Source of the DNA: Lentilactobacillus diolivorans DSM 14421
GTDB lineage: Bacteria; Bacillota; Bacilli; Lactobacillales; Lactobacillaceae
Direction of reading: 5' to 3'
Length of the DNA stretch: 64,000 nt
Assembly: GCF_001434255.1 (NCBI RefSeq)
Contig: NZ_AZEY01000007.1
Location: 1-64,000 of the forward strand
Shown: in pieces, positions 5,683 to 63,735 of the stretch
Position numbering within the stretch: position 1 is the first letter of the stretch
Layout: the number at the start of each line of letters is the position of its first letter
Program-made: the position numbers and the translations under genes
The notes under the pieces: generated by a model
Told to the model about the DNA's origin: nothing
The model's database searches: none
The model's input: the letters and a program-made list of their open reading frames with translations, nothing else

Positions 5683-5766
5683 GCCTACCTTAACAACCGT
5701 TAAAGTAGACGTCATCAACTCTTTGGTGTGTTAACACTGCTGAGTAAGGGCGAACGTCATCGCCGT
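5683..5766 (-). promoter_or_regulatory. Fluoride riboswitch (crcB motif) with terminator
   Basis: On the minus strand the leader holds GGCGATGACGTTCGCC (5749-5764), the signature 5' stem-loop of the crcB RNA motif. It is followed by GAGTTGATGACGTCTAC, corresponding to the conserved GCTGATG..CCTAC part. The 3' half overlaps an intrinsic terminator with arms GTCTACTTTAAC and GTTAAGGTAGGC (12 bp, loop GGTT) and then TTTTTT. Fluoride binding should stabilise the aptamer and prevent this terminator, switching on the crcB pair. Both sequence motif and downstream gene agree. Confidence 0.92.
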
Positions 5767-5878
5767 TTTAATAGTTAAAAGTATAGCAAATCAGCTGAAC
5801 AAGAACAACCCGCCATTGTTAGTGAAATATTAAAGCCTTATAATGAAACTTAATTTTGACAAGCAAGGAGGAATTCTC

Positions 5879-25450: not shown

Positions 25451-27394
25451 CTAAACATCCAGATTTTCAACAAATGTGGCATTGTTCTCAATAAATTCAC
25501 GACGAGGTTCGACTTTGTCACCCATCAGCATCGAGAATACTCGATTAGCTTCAGCAGCATCTGAGGATTCAACCCGCAATAAATGACGGTTTTCAGGATT
25601 CATAGTCGTATCCCATAACTGTTCAGCATCCATTTCACCAAGTCCCTTGTACCGTTGAATAACGGGCTTAGGCGATGGTTGTAAAGTCCCAAGGAATTGA
25701 TTCAAGTCGTCATCCGAATCAATATATCGTTGCATCTTACCCTGACGGACTTGATACAAAGGTGGTTGGGCAACGTAAACATAACCGGCATCAATTAGTG
25801 GTCGCATATACCGATAAATTAACGTCAACAATAGCGTTTGGATGTGAGCACCATCGACATCGGCATCGGTCATGATAATCAATTTGTGATAATTAATTTT
25901 CGATAAATCGAAGTCATCACCAAATCCCGTTCCCATGGCAGTAAATAATGAACGGATTTCTTCATTAGCTAGGATTCGATCCATACTGGCTTTTTCAACG
26001 TTTAAAATTTTTCCTCGAATGGGCAGGATAGCCTGAGTAAGTCGAGATCGTCCTTGTTTAGCTGACCCACCAGCAGAATCTCCCTCGACGATAAAGAGTT
26101 CAGATATTTTAGGATCCTTACTTGTATTATCAGCCAACTTCCCAGGAAGATTACTGATTTCCAATCCACTCTTTTTCCGAGTAACTTCACGAGCACGTTT
26201 AGCTGCCGAACGCGCCTTTGAAGCAAGCAAACCACGATCAACGATTTTTCGGGCTAATTTTGGGTTTTCCATCAAGAACTTTGAAAAATGATCACTAAAC
26301 ACCCGATCAGTGACGGTTCTTGCATCAGAATTTCCAAGTTTGGTCTTCGTTTGACCTTCAAATTGTGGATCGGGATGTTTGATACTAACAACTGCAGTCG
26401 TTCCTTCACGAACATCTTCACCAGAGAGGTTGGCTTCATTATCCTTAAGTAACTTATTTTTACGGGCGTAATCATTTACAACTCGTGTTAGTGCCCGTTT
26501 GAATCCTTCCTCATGAGTTCCACCTTCGTAAGTATGAATATTGTTGGTAAAAGTCATCAATGTATTGTGGTAATCTTCCGTATAATCAATCGAGACTTCA
26601 ACGGTTATCCCATTCATGATTCCTTCAACGTAGATCGGTTCATCTAATAAAGTGTCCTTGTCTCGATCAAGATATTCAACATAATGCCGAATACCTCCCT
26701 CGTAAAGAAAATCCTTTTCAGTTGGTTTCTCTGGTCGCAAATCACGAATAACGATTCTCAGACCCTTATTTAAGAAAGCTAATTCTCTGAGCCGAGCCGT
26801 TAAAACTTTGATGTCGAAAGTTGTCGTTTCACGAAAAATATCAGGATCCGGTAAGAAATGAACTTTTGTTCCATGAAGGTCATCCGAAACATGATCCACA
26901 ACCTTCATTTTAGTAGTAACATGACCTCGCGAAAAGTCCATGTAGTAAACTTTTCCATCTCGAGTAACTGATACATCCAGTTCCGTTGAAAGTGCATTAA
27001 CAACTGATGCACCAACACCATGAAGACCACCAGAAACTTTGTAACCGCCACCGCCAAATTTACCGCCAGCATGCAAAATTGTGAATACGGTTTCTAGTGC
27101 TGATTTACCCGTCTTTTTTTGAACGTCAACTGGAATTCCACGACCATCATCAGTAACTGTAATGCTATTATCCTTCTCAACGGTTACCGTGATTTTACTA
27201 GCAAAACCAGCAAGGGCTTCATCGATTCCGTTATCAACAATTTCCCATACTAAATGGTGAAGTCCTTGCGAACTCGTTGTGCCAATATACATCCCAGGAC
27301 GCTTACGAACAGCTTCGAGTCCTTCAAGAACTTGAATTTGACTCGCGTCGTATTCATGAGCTAATTCTTTTTTAGTTTCTTTTTCGTCAGCCAT
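25451..27394 (-). CDS. gyrB: DNA gyrase subunit B
   Basis: This is a 647-residue GyrB. The GHKL ATPase has [19 protein letters not shown] and [15 protein letters not shown]. The transducer domain follows, and then the TOPRIM domain with [13 protein letters not shown] and DADVDGAHI. It pairs with GyrA to introduce negative supercoils. Eleven base pairs separate it from recF in a yaaA-recF-gyrB-gyrA operon. The start has AGGAGA. Confidence 0.98.
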
Positions 27395-27405
27395 TTGTAT
27401 GTCTC

Positions 27406-28527
27406 CTAACTATTTTCCAAATCAACTGTGCCATCTTTTATCTTAAAAATTCGTGGATTTGTCAGCAACTCCTGCTGCACACCGCTTAAACTAGTGGTGG
27501 TTAAAAAGGTCTGAACTTTATCTTGAATTGCTGTCAAAAGGTGAGTCTGTCGAAAATCATCCAATTCAGACAGAACATCATCCAGCAATAGAATTGGATA
27601 TTCGTCAGTCTGTTCTTTCATTAAATCGATTTCAGCTAACTTTACCGACAACGCTGTTGTCCTCTGTTGACCCTGTGAACCAAAGGATTGAACTTCCTTA
27701 CCGTTAATAACAAAGTGGAGATCATCACGATGTGGGCCAATCAAAGTTGTTGCTCGAAATATTTCTTTATCTTTTATTTCAGTGAACTGCTTCAAAAGGT
27801 TTTGATAAATTAACTCTACGGACCCTAGCTGCTCTTTGGAAACAACAGTTTTGTATTCAAAAGTAAGCTTTTCTTTTCCTTGAGAGATTTCAGTGTGAAT
27901 TATTCTGGCGAAATTTTCTAACTTTTTAAGTAGTTGTAATCGCTGAAAAATAATTTCCGCACCATAAGCTGACAACTGATCTGATAGAACGTCTAAGTAC
28001 ACTCGATCAGATTGTCTTTTCTGATGTAAATCTCGCAAATAGCGATTACGTTGTTTTAGTATTTTTCGATATTGGGCAGAATTATACAAATAACGATTGC
28101 TCATTTGACCAAATTCCATGTCCATAAATCGACGCCGAACTTGAGGAGACCCCTTAACAATTGACAAATCTTCCGGTGCGAACAAAATAACATTTAGTTG
28201 ACCAATATAAGTGGATAACTTTGCTTGTTCTAAGTGATTAACTCTGGCCCGCTTTCCTTTAGGGCCCAAATCCAGTTCAATGGGAACATTTCCTAAGCGC
28301 TTTTGTAAAACACCTTTAATTTGAGCAGTTTGGCTATTCCAATTAATGAGTTCCTTCTCGTTATTTGTGCGATGACTACGGGTCAATGCCAAAACATAAA
28401 TCGCTTCAAGCAAGTTGGTTTTTCCTTGGGCATTTTCACCCAGTAATACATTAATACCATCTGAAAATTTAAGCGTTTGATTTACATAATTACGAAAATT
28501 ATGAATTTCAATTGCCGTTAATTTCAT
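27406..28527 (-). CDS. recF: DNA replication/repair protein RecF
   Basis: This 373-residue SMC-like ATPase has Walker [16 protein letters not shown], signature [17 protein letters not shown] and Walker [14 protein letters not shown]. RecF loads RecA at gaps with RecO and RecR. The start overlaps the yaaA stop by 4 bp (translational coupling), in the conserved dnaA-dnaN-yaaA-recF-gyrBA order. Confidence 0.98.
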
Positions 28528-28754
28528 TCAGATTCCTGCTTTGAGCGAATAAAAAATAAGCCAACATCAGGAATCTCAACTTTATCACCATCGGATAACT
28601 TTCGACCACGGCGATTGTCAGGTTCATTATTGACATTAACTGCAGTTTCTTTTAAATACCATTTAGCTTGACCACCACTACTTATAATGGCTTCCTCTTT
28701 CAATAATTGTCCAAGAGTAATATAAGGCCCATCAATGAAAATCTCTTTTTTCAC
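28524..28754 (-). CDS. yaaA: S4-domain protein YaaA
   Basis: This is an RNA-binding protein of about 76 residues with an S4 domain (ITLGQLLKEEAIISSGGQAKWYLKE...VNNEPDNRRGRKL). It is a standard neighbour of recF and is linked to ribosome assembly. I place the start at GTG 28754 because AAGGTGG precedes it; a GTG at 28766 overlaps that site. Confidence 0.93.
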   Translation of the reverse strand: MKKEIFIDGPYITLGQLLKEEAIISSGGQAKWYLKETAVNVNNEPDNRRGRKLSDGDKVEIPDVGLFFIRSKQESE

Positions 28755-28783
28755 AATTTCACCCACCTTTTTTACATAGTATA

Positions 28784-28789
28784 ATTATA
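28784..28789 (-). promoter_or_regulatory. -10 element for yaaA-recF-gyrB-gyrA
   Basis: A perfect TATAAT lies about 30 bp before yaaA on the minus strand. The -35 region is poor. Confidence 0.5.
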
Positions 28790-29216
28790 CCTCTTTATTT
28801 ACTAAAAGTACATGTTTATAGCGATTCTCAAGCATTCTGAGCGGGTTTTGGCATTTTTGATATTTTTACCTTATGAGAGTAAAAAGCGCTAAAAAGTACG
28901 TATATGGACAATAAATGATCTTTTAAGCTTTTTTTAAGCAGTTGGCAGAATATTTTTAACAACCTTGATGTTTGTGAAAACAGGATAAAAACATTTTCCA
29001 AATTATCTTGGCTTCCAATTAATGGTACAAATAAAACAACCATTTCCAAAATAAACACCTGGATTAAGTAAATAGCCCTTTTTATCTAAAACTTTCCATA
29101 CATAAAGTAATCGTAAAGTAAGTTGTCTGAATATTATCTGTTGGGTAATTTAAGGACATAACTAAGAGTTGTCTTTAAATCATTGGTTAATTTCCTTATA
29201 ATTGCACGCTTATTAA
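28790..29216. other. yaaA-dnaN intergenic gap with no recognised gene
   Basis: This AT-rich gap of about 430 bp shows no ribosome site, RNA motif or convincing frame on either strand. A 76-codon minus-strand frame here lacks a start context and a family match. The gap is larger than in many relatives, where yaaA follows dnaN closely. Confidence 0.5.
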
Positions 29217-29257
29217 AAGAGGCTGAACAAAATAAAATTTGCTCAGCCTCTTTGTAG
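29217..29257 (-). terminator. dnaN terminator
   Basis: The arms AGAGGCTGAGCAAATTT and AAATTTTGTTCAGCCTCT-like pairing (GAGGCTGA/TCAGCCTC core) are followed by T-rich sequence on the minus strand. It lies about 45 bp after dnaN and may work in both directions. Confidence 0.8.
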
Positions 29258-29300
29258 GTTTAATAATGTTCTACAACATATCTAAAGTAACAGGGGATCT

Positions 29301-30440
29301 TTAAAATGTCCTAATTGGTGTAATTAATTGAATAAAACTCTCACTTTCTTCGGTTGGAGTCAATGTAAACGGCCGCAATGACGACGTAAAATCAATATTA
29401 ATGGTTGCCTGGCCAAACGATCTGAGCGCATCTTTCATGTAATCAGGATTGAAAGAAATCTCAAGTTCGTTTCCTTCGACGGTTTTTGGTTCAAGATCTT
29501 CCTCGACATTCCCAACATCTGGAGAGTTTCCATAGATGGTAACAGATTTTTTATCTGGATCTACTGTAATCTTAACAACATTATTTCTTGATTCATGGGA
29601 TAGCAAAGATGCCCGTTCGATTGCTGCTAAGAGATCAGGTGAATCAAAAGCAACTTGCGTGTCATGAGAATCAGGAATTAATCTTGTTGTGTCGGGATAG
29701 TTTCCTTCCAAAAGCCGAGAATAGAATAAAGTATTACCAATTACAAAAAGTGCCTGATTTTCAGTAACTGATAAAGTAACTTCAGTTTTAACATCGTCTA
29801 TCATTCGAGAAAGCTCGATTAAGCTTTTACCTGGAATAACGAAATTATAAGTGCCATTGATTGGATTTTCCAAGGTTACTTTACGTTGGCTTAATCGGTG
29901 ACTATCTGTGGCAACAGCCAGCAAGTTATTTTCAGAAAGGACAAAATGAACCCCAGTTAGAATTGGCCGACTTTCTTGACTTGAAACTGCAACAACGGTT
30001 TGACTAATAATTTGCTTAAATAGATCTCCTGCCAATGGAATGGTATCCGTGGTTTGAATTTCTGGAAGATGTGGATAATTATTAGCATCTAATCCATTAA
30101 TGGTAAAGGACGATTGACCAGAAGTAATTAATGTTTGAAAATTTTCGCCAACTTCTAAAGTAATCGTATCTTCAGGTAATTTTTTAATAATATCAGTAAA
30201 AAATCGGGCTGGTAGGACAATTGCGCCTTCTGATTGAATAACCAACATATTATCTGGATCATCAGATCTTATTGTTGTTTCAATGGAAATGTCAGCGTCG
30301 CTTCCTGTTAAAACGATACCGGTTTCATTAGCAACTAATTTAAGTCCTGTCAAAATTGGAATTGTTGTTTTTGTAGAAATAGCTCTTGCTACTGTATTTA
30401 ATCCTTTTGTAAATGCTGTGCGACCAATTGAAAATTTCAT
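29301..30440 (-). CDS. dnaN: DNA polymerase III beta subunit (sliding clamp)
   Basis: This 379-residue beta clamp has three repeated clamp domains. It starts MKFSIGRTAFTKGLNTVARAISTKTTIPILTGL and ends with the partner-binding C-terminal LITPIRTF. The ATG follows GGGAGGTAG. It is separated from dnaA by the DnaA-box-bearing origin segment at 30516-30616. Confidence 0.98.
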   Translation of the reverse strand: MKFSIGRTAFTKGLNTVARAISTKTTIPILTGLKLVANETGIVLTGSDADISIETTIRSDDPDNMLVIQSEGAIVLPARFFTDIIKKLPEDTITLEVGENFQTLITSGQSSFTINGLDANNYPHLPEIQTTDTIPLAGDLFKQIISQTVVAVSSQESRPILTGVHFVLSENNLLAVATDSHRLSQRKVTLENPINGTYNFVIPGKSLIELSRMIDDVKTEVTLSVTENQALFVIGNTLFYSRLLEGNYPDTTRLIPDSHDTQVAFDSPDLLAAIERASLLSHESRNNVVKITVDPDKKSVTIYGNSPDVGNVEEDLEPKTVEGNELEISFNPDYMKDALRSFGQATINIDFTSSLRPFTLTPTEESESFIQLITPIRTF

Positions 30441-47778: not shown

Positions 47779-48103
47779 AAAAAAATCCGCCCAAAACAAA
47801 CTTTTGATTTGTTTAAGGACGGATTTTCCGCGGTACCACCTTAATTTGATGACAAAAAGACCGTCATCACCCTTAGCAAAGCGCTAGCACGCTCCCGACA
47901 ACTGACGTATGTCTGACGTTTCTTCGTACTCGTAACTTTCAGAAGAACCCTCTGTGGTCCATTTAACTGTTTGCGTTCGACCACACTCTCAGCAGCGGTG
48001 GCTCTCTTTACGTGCACAACAATCTTGATCTCCACATCAATGGTTTATTTAGGACGGATGTTTAATTGCCATTAAGCGTACGGCGATTATGTGAAAATGT
48101 CAA
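47779..48103 (-). promoter_or_regulatory. T-box leader, Trp specifier (TGG), upstream of trpEG
   Basis: A promoter TTGACA-17-TACGCT (48098-48103 and 48075-48080, minus strand) precedes the leader. Stem I pairs TGTGG/CCACA and GATTGTT/AACAGTT around a loop whose 3' strand is AAATGGA, giving specifier TGG at 47959-47961. The T-box GGTGGTACCGCGG lies at 47828-47840. The terminator has arms around ATCCGTCC and GGGCGGAT with a T-run. Uncharged tRNA-Trp should switch on trpEG. Confidence 0.92.
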
Positions 48104-48458: not shown

Positions 48459-48501
48459 CTAACTACAATTAAAATTTAACTTAACTTAGGAGATTCTAAT
48501 C

Positions 48502-48555
48502 ATGAAGAAAGTAAATCGCAAAATTAATCGATTTTATTACTATTGGTTCAGGTAG
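48502..48555 (+). CDS. Aromatic-amino-acid leader peptide of aroF-aroB
   Basis: A 17-codon frame with AGGAG 9 nt upstream encodes MKKVNRKINRFYYYWFR. Six of its last seven residues are Phe, Tyr, Tyr, Tyr, Trp and Phe, the three end products of the shikimate pathway. It lies 217 bp before aroF (3-deoxy-7-phosphoheptulonate synthase). Its Tyr-Trp codons form the 5' arm of the first leader hairpin (ACTATTGGT/ACCAATAGT). This is the expected design of an attenuation control peptide. It is too short to have another obvious function. Confidence 0.88.
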   Translation: MKKVNRKINRFYYYWFR

Positions 48556-48626
48556 TGTCCACATCGTACGGGATGCGGGCACTTGTCAGCATCCTGTGCG
48601 ACCAATAGTTCTTCAGCATGATTAGC

Positions 48627-48670
48627 GGTCACACAGTTCTCCATTTAAAATACTGTGGGACCATTTTTTT
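48627..48670 (+). terminator. aro attenuator terminator 1
   Basis: GGTCACACAGT and ACTGTGGGACC pair with one A-G mismatch and are followed by ATTTTTTT. It lies inside the aroF leader. Confidence 0.9.
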
Positions 48671-48686
48671 ACACAAATTTTCTTTA

Positions 48687-48720
48687 CCCCACAGTGTTTT
48701 CAGCCACTGTGGGGTTTTAT
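48687..48720 (+). terminator. aro attenuator terminator 2
   Basis: CCCCACAGTG and CACTGTGGGG form a perfect 10-bp stem followed by TTTTATTTT. It lies about 55 bp before the aroF start codon. Confidence 0.9.
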
Positions 48721-48772
48721 TTTATACTTTGATAAGCGTTAACTTTGAATTCTAAGAAATGAGGATGATATC

Positions 48773-49789
48773 ATGATTATTGTAATTAAAGACAACCAGA
48801 TGACAATTATTGACGAAATTAGGAACAGATTTGAAGGAACTCATGAAGTGTTTGTCCATCATAACCGAGTTGCGATTCAAGGGATTTCCGAGACTGATTT
48901 AACTCAGGACGAGAAAATCGCTGCTGATGCGATCATAGATAATGTGCCGGCTGCTGTTCAAGGCAGTCGATTATTTCACCCTGAGGATACAGTTATTACA
49001 ACCAAGCATAGTCAAATTGGTGGTGCCCATTTTACGATGATGGCGGGGCCGTGTTCCGTTGAATCAGCAGAACATGTCATGAAAATGGCAAAGGTCGCAA
49101 AAAGTGGTGGTGCCACTATTTTACGGGGTGGCGCATTTAAGCCACGGACCTCACCATACTCATTCCAAGGGTTGGGTGAAGATGGACTGAAATACTTAAG
49201 GGCCGCCGCTGATGCTTATGATATGGACGTATTAACTGAAGTCATGGATCAAGATCACGTTGATATGATTGCGCGTTACACGGATATTTTTCAAATTGGT
49301 GCTCGAAATATGCAGAACTTCTCGCTACTCAAAGCAGTCGGCAAAACAAATATTCCAGTAATGCTGAAGCGAGGGATGTCAGCAACAATTGATGATATTT
49401 TAAATGCTGCGGAATACATTGCCGCAGGCGGTAATCACCAAATCATGATTACAGAACGTGGCATTCGGACCTTTGATAATAAATACACGCGAAACACATT
49501 GGATTTAGGTGCTGTACCAGTTTTGCAAAAGTTGACTCACTATCCTGTCATTGTAGATCCTAGTCATGCCGCCGGTCATACAGAATTTGTCGTACCTGAA
49601 GCTTTGGCTGGGGTTGCAATTGGTGCTAGTGGCTTGGTGGTTGAAATTCACGATGATCCGGCTCATGCTTTTTCTGATGGTGCCCAAGCACTCAAACCTG
49701 ATGAATATCGGCAAATGGCAGCTAAAGCATTTGCAATCCGTCAATTAATTACGACGCCTAACGAAGAAAAAAGTGAGGTTACTTTATGA
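48773..49789 (+). CDS. aroF: 3-deoxy-7-phosphoheptulonate synthase (DAHP synthase)
   Basis: This 338-residue type I-beta DAHP synthase has an N-terminal ferredoxin-like regulatory domain (~1-75). The KdsA-like TIM barrel follows, with MMAGPCSVESAEH, RGGAFKPRTSPYSFQG, QIGARNMQNF, LKRGMSAT and VDPSHAAGH. It condenses PEP with erythrose-4-phosphate, the first step of aromatic synthesis. The start follows GAGGATG. Its stop overlaps aroB by 4 bp. Upstream is the aromatic leader peptide and attenuator. Confidence 0.96.
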   Translation: MIIVIKDNQMTIIDEIRNRFEGTHEVFVHHNRVAIQGISETDLTQDEKIAADAIIDNVPAAVQGSRLFHPEDTVITTKHSQIGGAHFTMMAGPCSVESAEHVMKMAKVAKSGGATILRGGAFKPRTSPYSFQGLGEDGLKYLRAAADAYDMDVLTEVMDQDHVDMIARYTDIFQIGARNMQNFSLLKAVGKTNIPVMLKRGMSATIDDILNAAEYIAAGGNHQIMITERGIRTFDNKYTRNTLDLGAVPVLQKLTHYPVIVDPSHAAGHTEFVVPEALAGVAIGASGLVVEIHDDPAHAFSDGAQALKPDEYRQMAAKAFAIRQLITTPNEEKSEVTL

Positions 49790-50862
49790 AGATTATCAAA
49801 GTAGATTTACCGGATCATTCGTACAATGTTGAAATTCAGGCTGGCCTTTTAAATTGTACCGGGCAGCTGGTCTCCAGTGTTTGGTCCGAGCGCAAAATCG
49901 CCTTGGTTAGTGATAGTAACGTGGCACCGCTTTACCAAAGTAAGGTTGCTGATGCGTTAGTTCGAGTTGGATTTACGGTTCATAATTACCAATTTCCAGC
50001 GGGGGAGGAATCCAAGTCGCTTGAAGTGTTGGCAAACTTAACTCGTCAAATGGCCGCTGATGGCTTTAACCGTGATGATGGTGTCATCGCTTTGGGCGGT
50101 GGTGTGACTGGTGATTTGGCTGGGCTGTTAGCAGCCACCTACATGCGTGGGATTAGTCTGATTCAGATGCCAACATCATTGTTAGCTCAAGTCGATAGCT
50201 CAGTTGGTGGTAAAACGGCTGTTGATTTAGATACCACTAAGAATATTATTGGAGCATTTTACCAACCCGATTTAGTTATTATCGATCCAGAAACTTTAAC
50301 AACACTGACAAAGCGGGATTTGGTAGAGGGATATGGTGAAATTGTTAAGGTTGGTGCCTTGTCTGATGGTGATTTATGGAAATTAATTGAATCAATTGAA
50401 ACACCTGAAGACATTTTGAAATATGCGCCTGAACTAAGTATGCATTCTGTTCAGTACAAAGCCAATATTGTGATGGGAGATGAAAAAGAAGGTGGACTTC
50501 GTCAATTACTGAACTTTGGTCATACCATTGGGCACGCTGTTGAAGCCTTAGCTGACGGTGATTTACGTCATGGTGAAGCAGTAAGCATTGGCATGGTTGC
50601 TTTAACCCGGATTTTTGAAGAAAAAGGATTATCACAAGCCGGGTTAACCCAAAAGCTAACTGATCGTTTAGAAGCCGTCGGGTTGCCGACCAGTTCATCA
50701 TTGCTCGATTCACCGGCAGTCTTTGACAAGATTAAAAACGATAAGAAAAATCGAGATGGCCACTTAAACTTAATCTATTTACACCAAATTGGTGGGCCGG
50801 CAATTAAATCAATTCCATCAAGTACGATTCGTGAGTTCTTAGATGCTAAAGAAAATGTTTGA
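49786..50862 (+). CDS. aroB: 3-dehydroquinate synthase
   Basis: This 358-residue NAD+- and metal-dependent enzyme of shikimate step 2 has GEESKSLEVL, the nucleotide-binding GGGVTGDLAGLLAATYMRG, PTSLLAQVDSSVGGKTAVD and metal-ligand His in NFGHTIGHAVEA. The ATGA overlap with aroF indicates coupled translation. The other shikimate genes are not in this window. Confidence 0.97.
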   Translation: MKIIKVDLPDHSYNVEIQAGLLNCTGQLVSSVWSERKIALVSDSNVAPLYQSKVADALVRVGFTVHNYQFPAGEESKSLEVLANLTRQMAADGFNRDDGVIALGGGVTGDLAGLLAATYMRGISLIQMPTSLLAQVDSSVGGKTAVDLDTTKNIIGAFYQPDLVIIDPETLTTLTKRDLVEGYGEIVKVGALSDGDLWKLIESIETPEDILKYAPELSMHSVQYKANIVMGDEKEGGLRQLLNFGHTIGHAVEALADGDLRHGEAVSIGMVALTRIFEEKGLSQAGLTQKLTDRLEAVGLPTSSSLLDSPAVFDKIKNDKKNRDGHLNLIYLHQIGGPAIKSIPSSTIREFLDAKENV

Positions 50863-63405: not shown

Positions 63406-63735
63406 CATTGTGGTGTAACCAGATTACGATTAGAAATAATTAATCATATTAGAAAAAAACGATGATAAGGAAAGTAATTGCCTTAACATTTTCAGGGAGA
63501 GTCGGCAAGTGGAAACGGCTTAATTGTTTTTGCAGTGAAAGTAACCTTTGAGTGAACGGATGCAAGTGATGAGCATCCGTTGGAAGCGTCCATTATCGCA
63601 CTAATGTAACTGAAAACAAAGTTAACAGTTTACATAATAAGGTAATAGTTGTGAAACTGTTACAAAGTTTGGGTGGTAACACGTGAAAACGTCCTTTGAG
63701 ATCAAGTTGATTTCAAAGGACGTTTTTTGTTTGAA
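63402..63735 (+). promoter_or_regulatory. T-box leader, Val specifier (GTA), upstream of cation antiporter
   Basis: The promoter TTGACA-17-TACGAT (63402-63407 and 63425-63430) overlaps the pcp stop codon. Stem I pairs AAGG/CCTT and ATTGC/GCAGT around AAAGTA on the 5' side and GAAAGTAA on the 3' side. In GAA-N-codon-R spacing this gives specifier GTA at 63541-63543. GGGAGAG marks the AG bulge. The T-box is the variant GGGTGGTAACACG. The terminator AACGTCCTTTGA/TCAAAGGACGTT is followed by T's. TGGT fits the discriminator A of tRNA-Val. Confidence 0.85.

Follow-up and report, generated by a model that had tools for sequence, protein, structure and literature searches.

A candidate ribosome-mediated attenuator with an aromatic leader peptide ahead of aroF-aroB in Lentilactobacillus diolivorans, and its counterparts across Lactobacillaceae

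Attenuation by amino-acid leader peptides has long been known mainly from Proteobacteria and Actinobacteria, and in lactic acid bacteria T-boxes fill this role. The E. coli pheL, trpL and pheST leaders have a four-segment design in which mainly one amino acid is sensed, and the E. coli his attenuator is a six-segment chain in which the pairings A:B, C:D and E:F alternate with B:C and D:E like dominoes. The pheL, trpL and pheST leaders are named in the available text of PMC11802643. Upstream of aroF in C. glutamicum, the AroR leader encodes a Phe-Tyr-Phe peptide and attenuates the DAHP synthase operon (Neshat 2014 as cited in PMC11802643; PMC4046766). In Acholeplasma, uORFC-13-1 is a uORF, located exclusively upstream of aroF, that contains one or more Phe codons and is accompanied by a terminator; attenuation has been proposed for it (PMC8632094). 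Among Firmicutes, the available parts of the respective papers describe leader-peptide attenuation for ilv in Listeria (Rli60, branched-chain amino acids; PMC5864092) and for his and hisS (PMC2965389, PMC9413887), as well as T-boxes for His in Lactobacillales (PMC9413887). Among the papers listed by searches of the open literature, none names an aromatic leader peptide in lactobacilli, and an earlier mention is possible.

We analysed a window of 64,000 nucleotides (the whole stretch of DNA, from contig NZ_AZEY01000007.1 of L. diolivorans DSM 14421) in which an intergenic region separates divergent minus-strand trpE/trpG-like genes from aroF-aroB. An earlier note on this DNA had placed a 17-codon frame with a ribosome site in this region, and the window sequence bears this out: an AGGAG is followed by an ATG at 48502, and the frame ends with a TAG at 48553-48555. 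Its codon run is Phe-Tyr-Tyr-Tyr-Trp-Phe, and the functions of aroF and aroB match these aromatic codons. The leader and the genes behind it are the following.

48488..48492, plus strand: Shine-Dalgarno sequence AGGAG of the leader ORF, kept in most rows of the genus alignment A1
48502..48555, plus strand: leader ORF MKKVNRKINRFYYYWFR with its stop codon TAG; an aromatic leader lies at the same place in 19 of the 20 aroF-bearing genomes of the genus
48773..49789, plus strand: aroF, DAHP synthase (PF00793, PRK08673)
49786..50862, plus strand: aroB, 3-dehydroquinate synthase (TIGR01357)

Counting both strands, the window holds 32 ORFs of 8-30 codons that start with an ATG preceded by a Shine-Dalgarno sequence. 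Two of the 32 carry six aromatic residues within seven: one is the aroF leader, the other a chance ORF on the strand opposite a recF-like gene. The sequence TAYTAYTAYTGG occurs at eight places in the genome, and the window copy alone reads as a leader ORF. A promoter search at the aroF leader returned weak matches only. Elsewhere in the window, a row of ORFs at 25451-30440 (minus strand) is presumably gyrB-, recF- and dnaN-like; given this row, the window probably contains the replication origin region.

The divergent trpE/trpG-like genes have a T-box leader ahead of them (47812-48049, minus strand), whose specifier reads UGG (Trp) by our reading of the Rfam alignment, and one intergenic region is shared by two RNA mechanisms of one pathway, a T-box and an aromatic leader. 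A second T-box leader lies close to the window end (63453-63699, plus strand; 94.3 bits), and a fluoride riboswitch match at 5699-5773 (minus strand; 39.3 bits). With a T-box on the neighbouring operon, and in an order that commonly uses T-boxes, the aroF leader might itself be a T-box or a metabolite riboswitch. We consider this extremely improbable: neither the aroF leader nor any of the 60 aro-region loci searched in the family has an Rfam match at gathering score, and the T-box model RF00230 matches the window only at the two leaders just named and none of the 60 loci. The best match below threshold, to the trpB motif RF04312, scores 29.3 bits in the leader against a cut-off of 59, exceeds that cut-off in none of 24 genus genomes, and was set aside as background in the genus.

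Compared to dinucleotide shuffles, the leader RNA folds with a z of -7.0, and none of 200 shuffles is equally good. The hairpins 1:2, 3:4 and 5:6 and the alternative pairings 2:3 (one mismatch) and 4:5 (perfect) described in the earlier note are all present in the window with the coordinates given there. The hairpin W:X and the helix P0, absent from that note, add to them, and the segments are listed here in order.

48497..48504, plus strand: 5' arm of P0, spacer and start codon, TAATCATG
48540..48547, plus strand: outer arm of segment 1, from the last base of Tyr13 to the first base of Phe16; pairs with 48601-48608
48554..48565, plus strand: segment W, from the second base of the leader stop codon
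48565..48576, plus strand: segment X, inner 5' arm of 1:2; pairs with 48589-48600
48572..48583, plus strand: 3' arm of W:X, overlapping segment X; partner of W
48589..48600, plus strand: segment Y, inner 3' arm of 1:2; partner of X
48595..48603, plus strand: part of segment 2 in the antiterminator 2:3
48601..48608, plus strand: outer arm of segment 2; partner of 48540-48547
48617..48624, plus strand: 3' arm of P0, CATGATTA, in the linker between segments 2 and 3; partner of the P0 5' arm
48627..48637, plus strand: segment 3, 5' arm of 3:4; 48627-48635 pairs with segment 2
48652..48662, plus strand: segment 4, 3' arm of 3:4; 48652-48659 pairs with segment 5
48664..48670, plus strand: U-tract (T7) after 3:4, from the window sequence
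48686..48715, plus strand: terminator 5:6, with segment 5 at 48686-48696 and segment 6 at 48705-48715

The antiterminator 2:3 (48596-48603 with 48627-48634) spans eight positions, of which seven are paired and one is a C-A mismatch, and an extra pair 48595:48635 is possible. Helix 3:4 (48627-48637 with 48652-48662) has one A-G mismatch, 4:5 (48652-48659 with 48688-48695) is perfect, and the terminator 5:6 runs into the tail TTTATTTTAT. The segments overlap in one chain, W-X-Y(2)-3-4-5-6, with two mutually exclusive sets of pairings: 1:2 (X:Y and the outer arm), 3:4 and 5:6 on the one side, and W:X, 2:3 and 4:5 on the other.

We propose that aroF-aroB, the operon for entry into the shikimate pathway, is with high probability controlled by this element as a ribosome-mediated transcription attenuator. 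An ORF preceded by a Shine-Dalgarno sequence carries the regulatory codons, a terminator stands before the first gene, and a conserved antiterminator excludes it. When charged aromatic tRNA is plentiful, the ribosome would reach the stop codon and cover W; 1:2 would then form, followed by 3:4 and 5:6, and transcription would stop. A ribosome waiting on the Phe or Tyr codons (less surely on Trp) would cover the outer arm of segment 1 and leave W free. W:X would open the inner part of 1:2, segment 2 would pair with 3 before 4 is made, 4 would then pair with 5, and 3:4 and 5:6 would both fail, giving read-through. Should no ribosome load in time, P0 would form, block translation of the leader and lock the terminating state. 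The earlier note had also read the locus as an attenuator; the family-wide comparison strongly supports this reading, the regulation itself being predicted from sequence.

Within the genus, aroF is present in 20 of 24 genomes, and an aromatic ORF starts 228-294 nt upstream of it in 19 of the 20. In the twentieth (L097), codon run and hairpins are retained but a start codon is not recognisable; 48 nt of contig precede the matched codons. It was retained in alignment A1 and, being without a start codon, excluded from the set of 70 leaders described below. In the 20-sequence genus alignment, 2:3 is paired in 99.4% and 4:5 in 100% of the cells, as against 33-55% for slid versions of the two together. 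The corresponding values are 95.5% for P0 (two covarying pairs), 96.2% for the outer and 94.6% for the inner part of 1:2 (the latter with four covarying pairs), 91.8% for W:X and 93.0% for 3:4, one pair of which is nonstandard in 14 of the 20 sequences. Helix 5:6 comes to 39.6% on A1, where arm 6 is misaligned, and the hairpins were therefore located in each sequence separately. Because sequence variation inside the genus is small, this alignment taken alone indicates modest covariation.

Across the family, 148 of 397 genomes contain aroF (E <= 1e-60), often with aroE or tkt-aroE ahead of it, and the leader then precedes the first gene of the operon. In 16 genera of Lactobacillaceae an aromatic leader stands first in aroF, aroE-aroF or tkt-aroE-aroF operons. 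An attenuator of this kind, which the earlier note had expected to be unusual, is not unusual within this family. Leaders were found in 12 of 12 stretches of genus g20, in 11 of 40 deeper stretches and in 19 of 20 still deeper ones. The comparison set holds 70 leaders from 15 genera, the 16th genus having been added by a covariance model; as the 70 were chosen as aromatic ORFs, conservation of the peptide is partly built in, and that of the pairings is not.

The peptide cores include NRFYYYWF, NRFSYYW, NSYYYYWF, RYYWFS, FSYYYYQ and RFYSYW. This bears on a rival explanation in which the nascent aromatic peptide, possibly together with a free amino acid in the manner of TnaC, arrests the ribosome and the same RNA relay answers to a signal other than tRNA charging. 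Such a sensor would fit the short core N-[RS]-[FS]-Y-Y-Y-W-F, or one near it, which recurs over genera and adjoins the stop codon. However, the core drifts yet stays aromatic (FYYYWF, FSYYW, SYYYYQ, RYYWFS, FYSYW, YAWYA) and the N-terminal residues differ between genera, as codon counting predicts, and we judge an arrest peptide to be improbable compared to an attenuator that reads tRNA charging.

The covariance model R1, which extends from the aromatic codons to 3:4 and was built from 18 of the 70 leaders, finds 101 places in 99 of the 397 family genomes at E <= 0.001; for 84 of the 101, aroF follows on the same strand at a distance of 79-3141 nt. It adds g16 as the 16th genus, with the leader MNNKILKNNSYYYFWFM before tkt. 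Another match, in Leuconostoc fallax (L007), precedes a transketolase-like gene; the frame ends in LNSYYYFWFT, its start falls outside the sequence covered there, and it probably represents a 17th genus. In 71 aroF loci outside the family, R1 has no match. A peptide filter missed L006 and L007, where R1 finds the element, so that negatives of the filter are inconclusive, and L296 has an aromatic leader that was missed by the filter that built the 70-leader set. Reading of stretches from genera g4, g14, g19, g25 and g39 revealed no leader, nor was there one in front of those g18 aro operons that were read or of a second aroF copy (L116, L005). Likewise, L269-L271, L273-L279 and L299 show no leader-like feature, the leader of g16 (L273, L274) lying further upstream. 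An order-wide search for the pattern GGAG...YYYWF gave 39 places in 38 of 395 genomes, against about 30 for a reversed control; on reading by eye only four are leader-like, all from Lactobacillaceae, and the pattern is narrow and does not imply absence elsewhere.

Compensating change between genera was assessed by comparing the duplex energy of a leader's own two segments with that of the same 5' segment and the 3' segments of other genera. Each distinct segment pair entered the comparison a single time, which leaves 63 to 67 of the 70 leaders. The own pairing beats the cross-genus mean in 62/63 cases for W:X (-17.0 vs -10.5 kcal/mol), 53/64 for 2:3 (-15.8 vs -12.8 kcal/mol), 64/65 for 4:5 (-17.6 vs -11.3 kcal/mol) and 61/67 for P0 (-13.2 vs -8.6 kcal/mol; shuffles -8.2), with the caution that segments 3-6 share constraints and that sequences of one genus are not independent. 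By genus means, the own pairing is better in 15/15 genera for 4:5 and P0 and in 14/15 for 2:3, where g3 is tied. Against shuffles, p <= 0.05 is reached in 56/63 cases for W:X, 54/64 for 2:3, 51/65 for 4:5 and 38/67 for P0, the weak genera being g22 and g32 for 2:3, g7 and g38 for 4:5, and g6, g7, g12, g20 and g30 for P0. Helices 2:3 and 4:5 are maintained by complementary sequence that is specific to each genus. The earlier note had looked to relatives for a shared peptide and shared alternative pairings, and both are there: an F/Y/W-rich peptide in the 70 leaders, and 2:3 and 4:5 kept by differing sequences.

The 5:6 hairpin with its U-rich tail is present in 70/70 leaders, 69 of them by a search requiring the tail and L098 separately. 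A U-tract after 3:4 was found in 32/70, by a criterion that may miss tracts inside an extended stem: in 14/19 leaders of the home genus, in all of g3, g12, g13, g22 and g24, in part of g30 and g33, and in no leader of g2, g6, g7, g15, g20, g32 and g38. The double terminator claimed for the window is real there, with two hairpins followed by U-tracts, but it is not essential to the design. It is a lineage trait, with 5:6 as the likely regulated terminator and 3:4 mainly a link in the chain. Two such hairpins beside a divergent neighbour could also be plain tandem terminators, a barrier to transcription noise between the divergent trpE and aroF transcripts that regulates nothing. The hairpins, however, come after a conserved ORF with a Shine-Dalgarno sequence on the aroF strand, 3:4 is often without a U-tract, and the pairings that oppose termination (2:3, 4:5 and W:X) are conserved; plain terminators are therefore very unlikely.

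For an attenuator, the earlier note had raised the caveat that a waiting ribosome would not be expected to reach the inner part of 1:2. A conserved competing hairpin, W:X, answers the difficulty: in nearly every leader a hairpin starts in or beside the leader stop codon and captures the 5' arm of inner 1:2. Folding was constrained with an assumed ribosome footprint of -17 to +12 around the A-site codon. For RNA ending after segment 3, the mean 2:3 probability over the 70 leaders is 0.13 with no ribosome and rises to 0.37-0.45 when 8 to 4 codons separate the A site from the stop, peaking at 0.44-0.45 at 6 or 5 codons; it is 0.29 at 3 codons and 0.08-0.15 from 2 codons on. In the window leader, the constrained 2:3 probability lies between 0.19 and 0.39 for codons 10-14 and does not exceed 0.05 from Trp15 onward. 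Over folding runs it reaches only 0.19-0.47 under stalling, and even when the ribosome sits on Tyr13 or Tyr14 the minimum-energy fold contains inner 1:2. Because 2:3 falls from the Trp codon on, given the assumed +12-nt footprint, Phe11 and Tyr12-14 are the best supported sensors in these calculations and Trp15 is marginal. Of the claim that all three aromatic residues are sensed, the parts on Phe and Tyr agree in direction with the constrained folding of RNA ending after segment 3, and that on Trp is the least certain.

In the full-length RNA at equilibrium with a stalled ribosome, the 5:6 probability is over 0.5 in 66/70 leaders. For E. coli trp, a similar calculation yields 0.09 when free and 0.99 when stalled before segment 4; after that segment, the terminator reaches 0.82. 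Equilibrium folding does not discriminate here, because the E. coli trp control retains its terminator too. Since equilibrium, once segments 4 to 6 are made, favours termination in nearly all leaders whatever the ribosome position, the switch would have to be kinetic, as for E. coli trp, which the folding calculation suggests and does not prove.

Leaders of this kind are also found away from aroF. Of the 17 remaining R1 places, 16 were read, all but G389 from g18: 11 precede an aminotransferase gene, one (L379) has the same leader type where its contig ends, one lies before aroC and one before an MFS transporter, one is an orphan and one a false match. A single aminotransferase was tested and has NCBIfam PRK07309 as its nearest profile, at 575.1 bits just under the cut-off of 576, and the names of aroC, the transporter and transketolase come from the same profile comparison. 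A second covariance model matches 110/397 genomes, including all 20 aroF-bearing members of the genus, with some of its places being cross-matches to aro leaders. Of 30 second-model loci read, 13 of them from the genus, 29 show an aromatic leader followed by an aminotransferase motif and one runs off its contig. The genome of the window has a second aromatic leader, MENNCRTQLNSCRYYFWFFQI, before an aminotransferase gene (L340, G000:C22:97934-98045, plus strand). By eye, TGATCTGTG over the stop codon of this leader complements the 5' arm of the next hairpin, bar one or two wobble or mismatch positions, and the aminotransferase leader, read in the same way, is a simpler design than the aroF relay. 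Two g38 genomes (L386, L387) have the leader SFYFWYFR before an aminotransferase and no aroF at E <= 1e-60. At L380 (G186:C7), the leader MQKLLAKQSNRFYYYWFIQ with a shortened relay has no long gene close downstream and is possibly a relic of a lost aro operon.

In a set of 75 aroF loci (L007-L081), all but four of which come from outside the family, 11 have an ATG ORF preceded by a Shine-Dalgarno sequence with at least four aromatic residues in seven, at most 700 nt upstream, for example in Oscillibacter and other Clostridia; this count is without a chance control, and L025 looks like chance. Clostridia and relatives at L011, L019, L045, L048, L063, L064, L068 and L081 have other aromatic-rich uORFs before DAHP synthase, with the core AAEY(F/R)YF common to L011, L019, L045 and L048. 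Nine of the 11 uORF loci were folded and look unlike the Lactobacillaceae relay, and R1 does not match the uORF loci.

A broader reading, which we hold with moderate confidence, is that Lactobacillaceae possess a regulon of aromatic leader peptides throughout the family, whose basis is a seven-segment RNA relay locked at the start codon. Working alongside T-boxes of the same genome, it would govern an aminotransferase and the entry into aromatic synthesis (tkt-aroE-aroF-aroB, with aroC added in a single genome); with aromatic uORFs before DAHP synthase also in distant Firmicutes, such control may have arisen repeatedly. The presence of the leader in at least 16 genera suggests that the two systems split the work within one genome, here across one divergent intergenic region. 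The device probably lets lactobacilli switch on aromatic synthesis only when aromatic amino acids are scarce, and its hosts include tractable food bacteria in which the supply of these amino acids matters. The seven-segment relay offers a strong natural test case for co-transcriptional domino folding.

Among described systems, AroR and uORFC-13-1 come closest. AroR is like the Lactobacillaceae element in placing an aromatic leader peptide on a DAHP synthase operon. It differs in being actinobacterial and in being said to respond to Phe and not to Tyr, and the available text on AroR describes no multi-segment relay (PMC11802643, PMC4046766). uORFC-13-1, compared by its description, differs in its origin from Acholeplasma and environmental sequences and in its reliance on Phe, and the available part of its report mentions no tandem hairpin chain (PMC8632094); R1 has no match in the Acholeplasma/Acholeplasmataceae aroF loci L017, L018, L034 and L047. 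Rli60 and the Firmicutes His leaders have amino-acid attenuation in Firmicutes in common with the element, but concern other amino acids and other families. With pheL, trpL and pheST it shares the reading of tRNA charging by a leader peptide and the choice between terminator and antiterminator. The domino logic is common to the element and the E. coli his attenuator, compared to which the Lactobacillaceae element has an extra segment W, up to two terminators, a start-codon helix and aromatic codons.
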